64,000 bases of DNA from positions 52,802-116,801 of the forward strand of contig CANMIP010000019.1 in assembly GCA_947497945.1 (NCBI GenBank), in the 5' to 3' direction. Each line of letters opens with the position of its first letter. Position 1 is the stretch's first letter. Source of the stretch: an uncultured Tropicimonas sp. GTDB taxonomy: Bacteria > Pseudomonadota > Alphaproteobacteria > Rhodobacterales > Rhodobacteraceae. The notes below the pieces were generated by a model that had not been told where the DNA came from, made no database searches, and saw nothing but the letters and a program-made list of their open reading frames with translations. This document shows positions 17,350 to 40,147 of the stretch, piece after piece. The translations under genes and the position numbers were made by a program.

Positions 17350-18669
17350 ATGACCGTTACCCGCTTCGCCCCCTCGCCCACCGGTTACCTGCATGTGGGC
17401 AATCTGCGCACTGCGCTTTTCAACTGGCTGATCGCGCGCAAGGCCGGCGGGCAGTTCATCCTGCGGCTGGACGATACCGATCCGGAACGCTCGAAGCCCG
17501 AATATGCCGACGCGATCAAGGAAGACCTTGAATGGCTCGGGCTGGACTGGGATCGGGTCGAAACCCAGTCCTCGCGGCTGGACCGCTATGCTGCCGCCGC
17601 CGACACGCTGCGGGAGAAGGGGCGTTTCTACGAGTGTTTCGAGACCCCGACCGAGCTCGATCTCAAGCGCAAGAAGCAGCTCAACATGGGCAAGCCGCCG
17701 GTCTATGACCGCGCCGGGCAGAAGCTGTCGGAAGAGGAGAAGGCCGCGTTGCGGGCCGAGCGCTCCGGCCATTGGCGCTTCCTGCTGGACCTTGAACGGA
17801 TCGAATGGGTGGACGGGATCCTCGGCGAGACCTCCATCGACGCGGCTTCCGTGTCGGACCCGGTGCTGATCCGCGGCGACGGGCAGGTGCTCTACACGAT
17901 CGCTTCCGTTGTCGACGACACCGAGATGGGCATCACCGACGTGGTGCGCGGCTCTGACCATGTGACCAACACCGCGACCCAGATCCAGATCATCGAAGCA
18001 CTTGGCGGCACGGTGCCCCGATTTGCCCACCACTCGCTGCTGACGGGTCCGCAGGGCGAGGCGCTTTCGAAGCGGCTTGGCACGCTGGCGCTGCGCGACC
18101 TGCGCGAGAAGGGCGTGGAGCCGCTGGCGCTGCTCTCGCTGATGGCGCGGCTGGGCTCCTCCGACCCGGTGGAGCTGCGCTCCTCGCATGCCGAACTGAT
18201 CGAGGGCTTCGACATATCCCGCTTCGGCGCCGCGCCGACGAAATTCGACGCCGAGGACCTCTACCCGCTGACAGCGCGCTACCTGCACGAGCTGCCGCTC
18301 GACGCGGTGGCCGAGGAGGTCGCAGCCCTTGGGGTGCCGTCCGAGCTGGCAGAACCGTTCTGGAACGTCGTGCGCGCGAATATCACCACGCGGTCCGACA
18401 TGGTCGGCTGGTGGCAGGTGTTGCGCGACGGCGCGGTGCCGCTGGTTGAGCCGGAAGATGCAGAGTTCGTCGCGCAGGCGCTCGGGATGCTGCCGGAGCT
18501 GCCCTTCGACGAGACGACCTGGTCGAGCTGGACCGCGGCCGTCAAGGCGGAGACGGGCCGCAAGGGCAAGGGCCTGTTCATGCCGCTGCGCAAGGCCCTG
18601 ACCGGCCGGCAACGCGGCCCGGAAATGGCCGATTTCCTGCCGCTGATGCAGGCGAAGCCGCAGCTCTGA
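17350..18669 (+). CDS. gltX: Glutamate--tRNA ligase (short, GlnRS-like class I synthetase)
   Basis: Charges tRNA-Glu. The 439-residue protein has the class I HIGH-equivalent HVGN at 15-18 (PTGYLHVGNLRTALFNW) and the KMSKS-equivalent ALSKR at 238-242. At about 440 residues it belongs to the short alphaproteobacterial GltX type; many Rhodobacteraceae carry two paralogues, one of which mischarges tRNA-Gln for the amidotransferase route, and this copy could be either. The ATG is preceded by AGGAG at good spacing. A strong hairpin terminator follows. Confidence 0.93.
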   Translation: MTVTRFAPSPTGYLHVGNLRTALFNWLIARKAGGQFILRLDDTDPERSKPEYADAIKEDLEWLGLDWDRVETQSSRLDRYAAAADTLREKGRFYECFETPTELDLKRKKQLNMGKPPVYDRAGQKLSEEEKAALRAERSGHWRFLLDLERIEWVDGILGETSIDAASVSDPVLIRGDGQVLYTIASVVDDTEMGITDVVRGSDHVTNTATQIQIIEALGGTVPRFAHHSLLTGPQGEALSKRLGTLALRDLREKGVEPLALLSLMARLGSSDPVELRSSHAELIEGFDISRFGAAPTKFDAEDLYPLTARYLHELPLDAVAEEVAALGVPSELAEPFWNVVRANITTRSDMVGWWQVLRDGAVPLVEPEDAEFVAQALGMLPELPFDETTWSSWTAAVKAETGRKGKGLFMPLRKALTGRQRGPEMADFLPLMQAKPQL

Positions 18670-27839: not shown

Positions 27840-28751
27840 TCAGGCGCTTTCCCGCTGCAACCGCACCGGCACCGTCCGCGCCAGCCGCAGGAAATGCGCC
27901 ATGAACGGCTTCTCGATCTCCGCGGACCGGCTCGCCGCATAGAGCCGCCGGGTCAACCCGCCCTCCGTCAGCGGCCGGGTCACGTAATCCGAATTGTAGC
28001 GCACCTCGCGCACGACCCAGTCCGGCAGCACCGCAACCCCGCGATTGGACGCCACCAGCAGCAGGATCACGGCAGTCAGCTCGACCTGCCGCACACTCCG
28101 CGGCTCAACCCGGGCCGGCATCAGAAGCTGGCTGAAGACATCGAGCTTGCTGCGTTCGACCGGGTAGGTGATCAGCACCTCGTTGCGGAAATCCTCCGCT
28201 TCGACAAAAGCGCGCTCCGCCAGCGGATGACGGGCCGAGGCGACAAAGACGGGCGAGTAGTCGAAGAGCGGATTGAAGGTGACGCCGTCGATCTCCTCGG
28301 GATCGGAAGAGATGACGATATCAACCTCTTCCTTCCACAGCGCCGGTAGCGCATCGAAGGCCAGCCCCGGCCGGATATCGACATCGACATCGGGCCAGGC
28401 CTTACGAAACTCTTCCAGCACCGGGAAGAGCCACTCGAAACAGGCATGGCATTCGATGGCGATATGCAGCCGTCCGGATTTCCCGTCCCGCAGCCCGCGA
28501 AACTCCTCTTCCAGCGCCGCCATCTCCGGCAGCACCCGTTCCGCCGTTCGCAACATGCGCAACCCGGCAGCCGAAAGCTTGAGCGGCTTGGAACGACGTG
28601 CGAACAGCTCCATCCCCGCCTGGTCTTCCAGCCCCTTCACCTGGTGGCTCAGCGCCGATTGCGTGATATTGAGCATATCCGCCGCCCGGGCGAGGCCGCC
28701 CGCTTCGTGGATAGCCTTGATGGTGCGGAGGTGGCGGAGCTCGACATGCAT
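27840..28751 (-). CDS. metR: LysR-type regulator of methionine metabolism MetR
   Basis: LysR-family activator of 303 residues, started at the ATG at 28751 (MHVELRHL) by comparison with E. coli MetR. The N-terminal helix-turn-helix covers GGLARAADMLNITQSALSHQVKGLE. The effector domain contains IECHACFEWLFPVLEEF and YPVERSKLDVFSQ, both specific to MetR, whose co-inducer is homocysteine. It is divergent from metF with a MetR box between the start sites, so it probably activates metF and represses itself. Confidence 0.93.
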   Translation of the reverse strand: MHVELRHLRTIKAIHEAGGLARAADMLNITQSALSHQVKGLEDQAGMELFARRSKPLKLSAAGLRMLRTAERVLPEMAALEEEFRGLRDGKSGRLHIAIECHACFEWLFPVLEEFRKAWPDVDVDIRPGLAFDALPALWKEEVDIVISSDPEEIDGVTFNPLFDYSPVFVASARHPLAERAFVEAEDFRNEVLITYPVERSKLDVFSQLLMPARVEPRSVRQVELTAVILLLVASNRGVAVLPDWVVREVRYNSDYVTRPLTEGGLTRRLYAASRSAEIEKPFMAHFLRLARTVPVRLQRESA

Positions 28752-38644: not shown

Positions 38645-39016
<372 letters not shown>

Positions 39017-39059: not shown

Positions 39060-39093
39060 TTGGACGAAAACGTGAAATGTTCTATATTCGTTC
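39060..39093 (+). promoter_or_regulatory. SOS promoter: LexA box over a -35/-10 pair
   Basis: GTTCTATATTCGTTC at 39079-39093 is an exact alphaproteobacterial LexA site (GTTC-N7-GTTC). It overlaps a near-consensus promoter: TTGGAC (39060-39065), 17-bp spacer, TATATT (39083-39088). The predicted start point, about 39095, coincides with the ATG at 39096 of the OB-domain gene, so the transcript would be leaderless. LexA bound here would cover the -10 element. Confidence 0.8.
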
Positions 39094-39095
39094 CA

Positions 39096-39500
39096 ATGAT
39101 CACCTCCTTTCCACCCGCCCCCTCGCCGCCGCCCGACAGCTGGCCGCGCCCGCCCGCCTGCCTGACGGCAAGCCAGCTCGCGCTGCCGCCCGGCGGCGCG
39201 CGGGTCTGCGTGGCCGGTCTTGTGCTGGTCCGGCAGCGGCCCGGCACGGCCAAGGGGGTGATCTTCCTGACGCTGGAAGACGAGACCGGCAGCTGCAATA
39301 TCGTCGTCTGGGCGAAGATCTATGAACGCTTCCGCCGCGCCGTCATCGCCGGACGCCTGCTGCGCGTCACTGGCCGCATCCAGCGCGAGTCGGAGGTCGT
39401 CCATGTCGTCGCCGAACATGTCGAGGATATCTCGCCCATGCTGGACGACCTCCTCCGCCCCGATTTCGACCCCGGCTTCGATATGGACGCGCCGGCTTGA
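39096..39500 (+). CDS. Stand-alone OB-fold domain derived from DnaE2 (error-prone polymerase C-terminus)
   Basis: A 134-residue protein whose residues 22-112 match the C-terminal OB domain of the error-prone polymerase DnaE2/ImuC (LTASQL, VAGLVLVRQRPGTAKGVIF, TLEDETG, VVWAKIYERFRR, VHVVAEHVEDIS). The polymerase, PHP and thumb domains are absent. The Pro-rich first 20 residues are unlike DnaE2. The ATG lies 2 bp after a LexA box with no Shine-Dalgarno. Either the imuA-imuB-dnaE2 cassette suffered a large internal deletion that left its SOS promoter joined to the 3' end of dnaE2, or this is an SOS-induced single-stranded-DNA-binding accessory protein. The frame is intact. Confidence 0.8.
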   Translation: MITSFPPAPSPPPDSWPRPPACLTASQLALPPGGARVCVAGLVLVRQRPGTAKGVIFLTLEDETGSCNIVVWAKIYERFRRAVIAGRLLRVTGRIQRESEVVHVVAEHVEDISPMLDDLLRPDFDPGFDMDAPA

Positions 39501-39610: not shown

Positions 39611-40147
39611 ATGTTCCGTCCCGCCCTGCTCCTCGCCCTGCTCCCGATCGCCGCCTGCAGCGGCATTCCGGAGGTTGCCCGGCTGGAAGACCCGGTGGAG
39701 ATAGACTCCCGCGGGGCCGACGGCCCGCCAGACGCCGCACCTGGCACCTGCTGGGGCCGCGACGAGACCCCGGCGACGCTCCAGACCGTGACCGTGGAAA
39801 CCGTCCTCACCCCGGCCACCTATGACGAGAGCGGCAAGGTCCTGACCCCAGCGGTCACAAGTACCGAGACCCGACAGGAGATCGTCGAGGAGCGGCAGGA
39901 ACTCTGGTTCGAGACCCCCTGCCCCGACAGCTTCACCCCCGATACCGTCGCCTCCCTGCAACGCGCCCTGGGCGCGCGCGGCGTCTATGATGGCGAGATT
40001 ACCGGCAGCCTGGACAGCGCGACACGCAGCGCCATCCGCCGCTACCAGCAACCCCAGGGGCTCGACAGCGCCGTGCTGTCCCTGACCGCCGCGCGCCAGC
40101 TTGGCCTCGTGGCCATCGCCACACCAGATACCAGCTCCGACACCTGA
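39611..40147 (+). CDS. Lipoprotein with peptidoglycan-binding domain
   Basis: A 178-residue protein with a lipoprotein signal peptide (lipobox LPIAAC, lipidated Cys16). A linker with a Thr/Val-rich repeat-like strand (TLQTVTVETVLTPATYDESGKVLTPAV) is followed by a C-terminal PG_binding_1 domain (VASLQRALGARGVYDGEITG, ATRSAIRRYQQPQG). It is expected to anchor the outer membrane to the cell wall. The mature middle part is not recognised. It stands alone downstream of the OB-domain gene. Confidence 0.87.
   Translation: MFRPALLLALLPIAACSGIPEVARLEDPVEIDSRGADGPPDAAPGTCWGRDETPATLQTVTVETVLTPATYDESGKVLTPAVTSTETRQEIVEERQELWFETPCPDSFTPDTVASLQRALGARGVYDGEITGSLDSATRSAIRRYQQPQGLDSAVLSLTAARQLGLVAIATPDTSSDT

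Follow-up and report, generated by a model that had tools for sequence, protein, structure and literature searches.

A detached DnaE2 OB domain under a LexA-type promoter, a likely fourth component of a split mutasome in Rhodobacteraceae

The window, the whole stretch of 64,000 nucleotides analysed here, encodes a 134-residue protein that appears to be the detached OB domain of the error-prone polymerase DnaE2. Sequence comparisons make it likely that this solo OB protein acts in trans: it would join an OB-less DnaE2 core and ImuB in a split mutasome, as its fourth subunit, and is probably induced in the SOS response. If true, a C-family polymerase would be given its DNA-binding domain in trans by an unlinked damage-induced gene, an arrangement for which we found no report in the literature covered.

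The solo OB gene and the DnaE2 of its genome

The gene lies on the + strand at positions 39096..39500, with its ATG at 39096-39098 and its stop codon at 39498-39500. In a profile search, residues 22-119 (39159..39452, +) matched positions 942-1039 of NF004225, the 1047-position model of the error-prone polymerase DnaE2, with an E-value of 3e-32 and 111.6 bits, whereas DnaE1 models scored at most 31.9 bits on the same protein. The best match was to the C-terminal OB domain of DnaE2, and the initial annotation of the gene as a stand-alone DnaE2 OB domain was borne out. The Pfam OB fold PF01336 covered residues 37-112 (39204-39431, +; E 2e-13). At 134 aa, the product holds the OB domain only and is not a whole DnaE2 polymerase, the core being encoded elsewhere. 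The single-stranded DNA-binding (SSB) family PF00436 reached 14.6 bits, under the Pfam gathering cut-off of 26, and in a solved-structure search the OB profile matched archaeal RPA14 only, weakly. An arm motif, WPRPP, is present at residues 16-20 (39141..39155, +); it occurs in solo proteins and not in the linkers of fused DnaE2s.

When the window's genome (115 contigs, rated 100% complete) was searched with the DnaE2 model, three genes matched: DnaE2 on contig C5, DnaE1 on C16, and the solo OB gene on C19. The DnaE2 (C5:102565-105477) matched NF004225 at positions 4-940 only, with the model covering residues 2-971 of 988. Its polymerase, finger and HhH domains were recognized by Pfam, and the same search found no OB domain in it. 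In the solved-structure search, this core matched Pol III alpha. Model coverage of the two genes is complementary: the DnaE2 stops at position 940 and the solo protein spans 942-1039, so that the domain absent from the polymerase is found in the solo gene. The initial annotation had suggested looking for a full dnaE2 elsewhere in the genome; the one on C5 is OB-less; the proposed competition of the solo protein with DnaE2 does not fit, because the protein would supply the missing part.

By homology, the genome encodes ImuA, ImuB and DnaE2. ImuA was named after the gene that precedes imuB in the plasmid cassette of Dinoroseobacter shibae, where it is annotated as 'hypothetical'; the cassette is called imuA-imuB-dnaE2 in the portion of PMC9426580 covered here. 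With imuA at C3:216821, imuB at C5:15171, the dnaE2 core at C5:102565 and the OB gene on C19, the four genes occupy separate places on three contigs and form neither a contiguous nor a two-part cassette; imuB and the core, both on C5, are about 86 kb apart. Two adjacent dynamin-family GTPase genes stand upstream of the dnaE2 core (L089:36-3041).

LexA-type boxes and the promoter of the OB gene

The sequence GTTCTATATTCGTTC (39079..39093, +) is an exact match to GTTC-N7-GTTC, the direct repeat described as the LexA motif of alphaproteobacteria (PMC3323433), and the ATG at 39096 begins 2 nt after it. The window holds three exact matches against 1.5 expected, and a single box is not beyond chance. 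The other two, at 18352-18366 and 28591-28605, are both on the - strand, and their number is close to the chance expectation. We therefore took the box as real because of its conservation across relatives, not because of its rarity in the window. Among 80 named loci, kept out of 454 relatives found, 78 had an exact box just upstream of the OB gene, compared with 17 of 3500 background windows (310 nt, + strand, from the same loci); at 71 of these boxed loci the start codon, ATG or GTG, came 1-3 nt after the box. Species of Ruegeria, Marivita and Tropicimonas are among those that have the solo OB. The neighbouring genes were also conserved. A divergent 2Fe-2S ferredoxin-like gene (38645..38968, -), named from reading its protein, lay upstream in 74 of the 80 loci, and a gene for a 178-aa protein (39611..40147, +) lay downstream in 63.

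The 60 solo genes of the family survey described below, which partly overlap the named loci, gave a similar picture: an exact box was found within 250 nt in 56, with the start 1-3 nt behind it in 44. The distance from the ferredoxin start to the box was 75-137 nt at 50 of 54 boxed loci. No box was seen in G147 and G056, G014 had one with a mismatch, and in G083 a longer frame begins at the box.

A promoter scan placed a putative -10 element, TATATT (39083..39088, +), inside the LexA box. A putative -35 element, TTGGAC (39060..39065, +), lies 17 nt before it and agrees weakly with the consensus (3/6 bases); the scan picked the overlapping combination TGGACG-16-TATATT instead, with 9 of 12 consensus bases. 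Among the 56 boxed solo genes, TTG occurred at a spacing of 16 or 17 in 39 and the -10 element opened with TA in 46, the window's own gene being included in both counts. With the -10 element within the box, a leader carrying a ribosome site would not fit. The natural reading of this promoter geometry is that the OB gene is probably leaderless-translated, its transcript starting at the ATG. The exact LexA box in an SOS-type promoter that had been described at the outset was confirmed, and the conserved spacing of box and start codon is consistent with the near-zero leader that had been proposed with it. As for the -35/-10 pair with 17-bp spacing, the -10 element stood, while the -35 is weak and the spacing of 16 is preferred by the scan.

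Predicted LexA-type boxes precede each of the other transcription units of the split set as well. Those of imuA and imuB are exact, and that of the dnaE2 core has 7 of the 8 fixed bases; it is one base off and lies about 107 nt before the start, which counts against the split mutasome. Exact boxes were present at 11 of 11 imuA and 9 of 9 imuB genes in 20 loci fetched from 11 genomes with a split DnaE2. The OB-less dnaE2 genes share a conserved upstream element, GACTC..aGAACAAAAcgTGAATATA. When boxes were defined for these genes as GAAC-N7-GAAC/T or GTTC-N7-GTTC, a pattern in which the GAAT form was added after the promoters had been seen, 55 of 58 dnaE2 cores had one within 300 nt (20 exact, 35 GAAC-N7-GAAT), whereas it was absent from all 464 windows taken from the coding parts of these genes. 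The exact box at -151 in L138 is probably due to chance, since that locus also has the GAAT element. Because boxes accompany imuA, imuB, the dnaE2 core and the OB gene, joint induction of all four is expected: LexA cleavage after DNA damage would release the four promoters together.

Distribution, retention and origin in the family

The DnaE2 model and the solo protein (E up to 1e-6, every match listed) were both searched against 149 genomes of the family, representing 148 genera, and 22 unclear genomes were re-searched with the DnaE2 model. An OB-less DnaE2 was found in 62 genomes (in one piece at first listing in 58, in pieces in 4), and a solo OB gene accompanied it in 58 of the 62. By comparison, none of the 69 genomes with fused DnaE2 only had a solo OB gene, and it occurred in 2 (G051 and G061) of the 18 in which DnaE2 was absent or a fragment only. 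Restricting the survey to 132 good assemblies gave 55 OB-less genomes (53 with solo OB), 64 fused (0), and 13 with no DnaE2 or a fragment (2). Solo homologues were thus present in 60 of the 149 genomes overall; a lack of relatives with the same layout, which the initial annotation had taken as a mark of a relic, was looked for and not found. These homologues are annotated as 'OB-fold nucleic acid binding domain-containing protein' or 'DNA polymerase III alpha subunit', and genome annotation in split-class genomes overlooks a probable mutasome part.

Several assignments depended on closer inspection. After the re-search, G021, G078, G091 and G095 were classified as fused, in pieces, and G118, G068, G142 and G098 as OB-less, in pieces. 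G085 has one fused gene reported in two pieces, and G061 has a DnaE2 N-terminal fragment alone, at a contig end. An apparent split on G009:C2 was rejected: a single fused gene appears to run over the point at which a circular record was opened, with dnaE2 at the contig end and the OB at base 6, and the locus (L152) was left out of the split rows. A further sample, of 292 genomes and overlapping the first, was also searched: the best 102 listed matches (at least 154 bits) were in frames of 125-650 residues; the next listed match, at 135 bits, was in a 1147-residue frame, and one short frame (G337, 124 bits) appeared further down.

Four OB-less genomes were without a solo OB gene. The locus is not visible in three of them, because the neighbouring ferredoxin gene is cut by the contig end (G098) or its orthologue is absent from the assembly (G044 and G142). 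The fourth, G064, counts against the split mutasome: 228 bp past the ferredoxin start (L286, bases 1816-2043) contain no box, and no solo OB was found anywhere in the assembly despite the OB-less core. The contig end was rejected as the cause of this gap, since the box was due at 75-137 nt. The last frame of the contig resembles the beginning of a putative transposase, and G064 looks like a case of real loss or of an OB gene displaced by that element. Also counting against the split mutasome are G051, which is rated complete, has solo OB, imuA and imuB, gave no DnaE2 match and seems to have lost the polymerase core alone, and G013, in which the core is broken into two frames. One genome, G035, has both arrangements, a split DnaE2 set on chromosome C1 and a complete fused imuA-imuB-dnaE2 cassette on the plasmid-like contig C4; ImuA of G035 matches in sequence that of the D. 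shibae plasmid pDSHI03.

The solo protein is under purifying selection. In each of the 1770 pairwise comparisons between solo genes pN was lower than pS, with a median ratio of 0.41, and the pair with the lowest pS gave dN 0.091 and dS 0.272; synonymous sites are partly saturated, and the true ratios should therefore be lower. The dN/dS comparison suggested initially thus came out non-neutral. Together with the conserved promoter and neighbours, it favours the retention over decay that had been proposed and speaks against the fossil left by a deletion in dnaE2 that had been offered as the other option. The idea that the gene is a decaying relic, a cassette promoter fused by deletion to the 3' end of dnaE2, draws on the small size of the frame and its clear origin from that 3' end. 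We consider it highly improbable, given that dozens of genera retain the gene and the geometry of its promoter, that selection on it is purifying, and that DnaE2 has undergone a complementary loss of the OB.

In a tree built from 110 DnaE2 cores, a single branch (SH support 98) separated the 58 OB-less sequences from the rest. From this we infer that the split arose once, in an ancestor shared by about two fifths of the genera sampled. With a single origin, the 58 of 62 co-occurrences are not 58 independent tests; their force is that both halves have been kept since. The OB tree (114 columns) was weakly resolved and needs 3 label changes, and pairs such as G125/G035, G144/G011 and G001/G057 were adjacent on both trees.

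Three fused-class genomes were examined at the corresponding locus: the ferredoxin and 178-aa genes stand side by side with no OB between them in G075 and G086, and G101 has the ferredoxin gene with neither the OB nor the 178-aa gene. Full-length DnaE2 tails end in HPR...SRDFH, with HPR within the last 30 residues in 47 of 51. Truncated HPR-like tails were found on the OB-less cores of the close relatives G126, G133 and G064, and also on the solo protein of G083, the lineage that branches first within the split class in the tree as drawn; these tails are short, and two more HPR matches (G020 core, G057 solo) look like chance. We read the neighbourhood and the tail remnants as the outcome of a copy followed by a loss: a copy of the 3' end of dnaE2 would have come to lie downstream of a LexA promoter, in the interval between the ferredoxin gene and the gene next to it, and the OB would then have been lost from the parent dnaE2, once.

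Proposed function, alternatives and candidate contact sites

In the proposed split mutasome, the OB protein would supply the DNA contact of the core, as the fused domain does in other DnaE2s, and would dock on the core C-terminus or on ImuB. A detached OB with a job of its own, as a small SOS-induced ssDNA-binding protein that acts independently of DnaE2, be it at gaps or together with the replicative polymerase, appears unlikely. The OB fold would suit such a role, and G051 keeps the solo OB without any DnaE2. The gene should nevertheless be useful in fused-only genomes too, and because no such genome in the survey keeps it, this explanation is weaker than that of a split subunit; furthermore, the gene goes with an OB-less core in 58 of 62 cases, and the SSB family match is below the cut-off. 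Still less probable, to a degree that makes it a marginal candidate, is that OB-less DnaE2 works without the domain and that the solo protein would inhibit or tune DnaE2 or ImuB. DnaE2s without an OB domain have been reported (in the part of PMC3919608 considered here), and G064 appears to have a core without an OB. The co-retention of the two halves and their shared LexA-type boxes, however, fit a needed subunit equally simply.

The split mutasome resembles the known ImuA-ImuB-DnaE2 (imuABC) SOS cassette in its homologous components and LexA-type boxes. It differs in that the DnaE2 of the window's genome is without its OB, that the OB is a fourth gene, that all four genes are unlinked, and that ImuB has an extra insert; a cassette with fused DnaE2 is known on the D. 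shibae plasmid. Several DnaE2s without an OB domain were noted by Timinskas et al. 2013 (PMC3919608), and the portion of that account covered here holds no separate OB gene, LexA control or co-occurrence. Stand-alone ImuB-C modules, described in parts of PMC6511836 and PMC12926913 for DnaE2X and other systems, are similar in that a mutasome domain is its own protein; there, however, a part of ImuB is separate, in putative operons, whereas here a C-family polymerase is split and its pieces are dispersed. Our literature search, made among open-access papers, found no prior report of a separately encoded DnaE2 OB. The terms 'OB domain' and 'OB-fold' are absent from the main text of a 2026 polymerase census (PMC12926913), and dnaE, imu, OB-fold and error-prone do not occur in the main text of PMC6473078, on LexA in D. 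shibae.

According to the sections of PMC3919608 covered, DnaE2 is linked to damage-inducible error-prone synthesis in many bacteria. Evolution has separated the OB, and both pieces have been kept in dozens of genera, so that the role of the OB can be tested via a 134-residue protein with the polymerase untouched. ImuB is treated as a hub in what we cite of PMC10421592 and PMC6511836, and the former presents the way in which ImuB engages DnaE2 as an open question. Two sequence marks of the split class, the WPRPP arm and an ImuB insert, name candidate contact sites.

The arm before the OB reads WPRPPA in most solo proteins. The motif W[PR].P was present in 51 of 60 solo proteins and in none of 51 fused linkers, in which the 45 residues before the OB were examined. 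The 9 solo proteins that miss it count against the split mutasome, although WPRP is found elsewhere in the frame in two of them (G047 and G083). Of 30 split-class ImuBs examined, 28 carry an extra segment, RSGDAIDQEARATRSRA..., about 40-45 residues long; this insert was noted in the genome's own imuB (L142:3169-4869) and in L292-L319. It is absent in G083 and G090 and divergent in G033, and it was not found in any of 28 fused-class ImuBs, two of which are cut at the site (32 loci were sampled, four without an ImuB frame). Because G083 is split and has no insert, the insert is probably later than the split. Arm and insert do not strictly covary: in G070, G106 and G115, for example, the solo protein is without the W motif and ImuB has the insert. 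A more detailed version of the split mutasome, in which the OB would be a dissociable subunit whose WPRPP arm docks on the ImuB insert GDAIDQEARATRSRA and whose leaderless-translated pool would gate polymerase activity, is offered as a tentative proposal that we hold doubtful as a whole. In the solo OB protein of G083 (L241), the WPRPP arm and the OB are set apart by a long stretch of low complexity.
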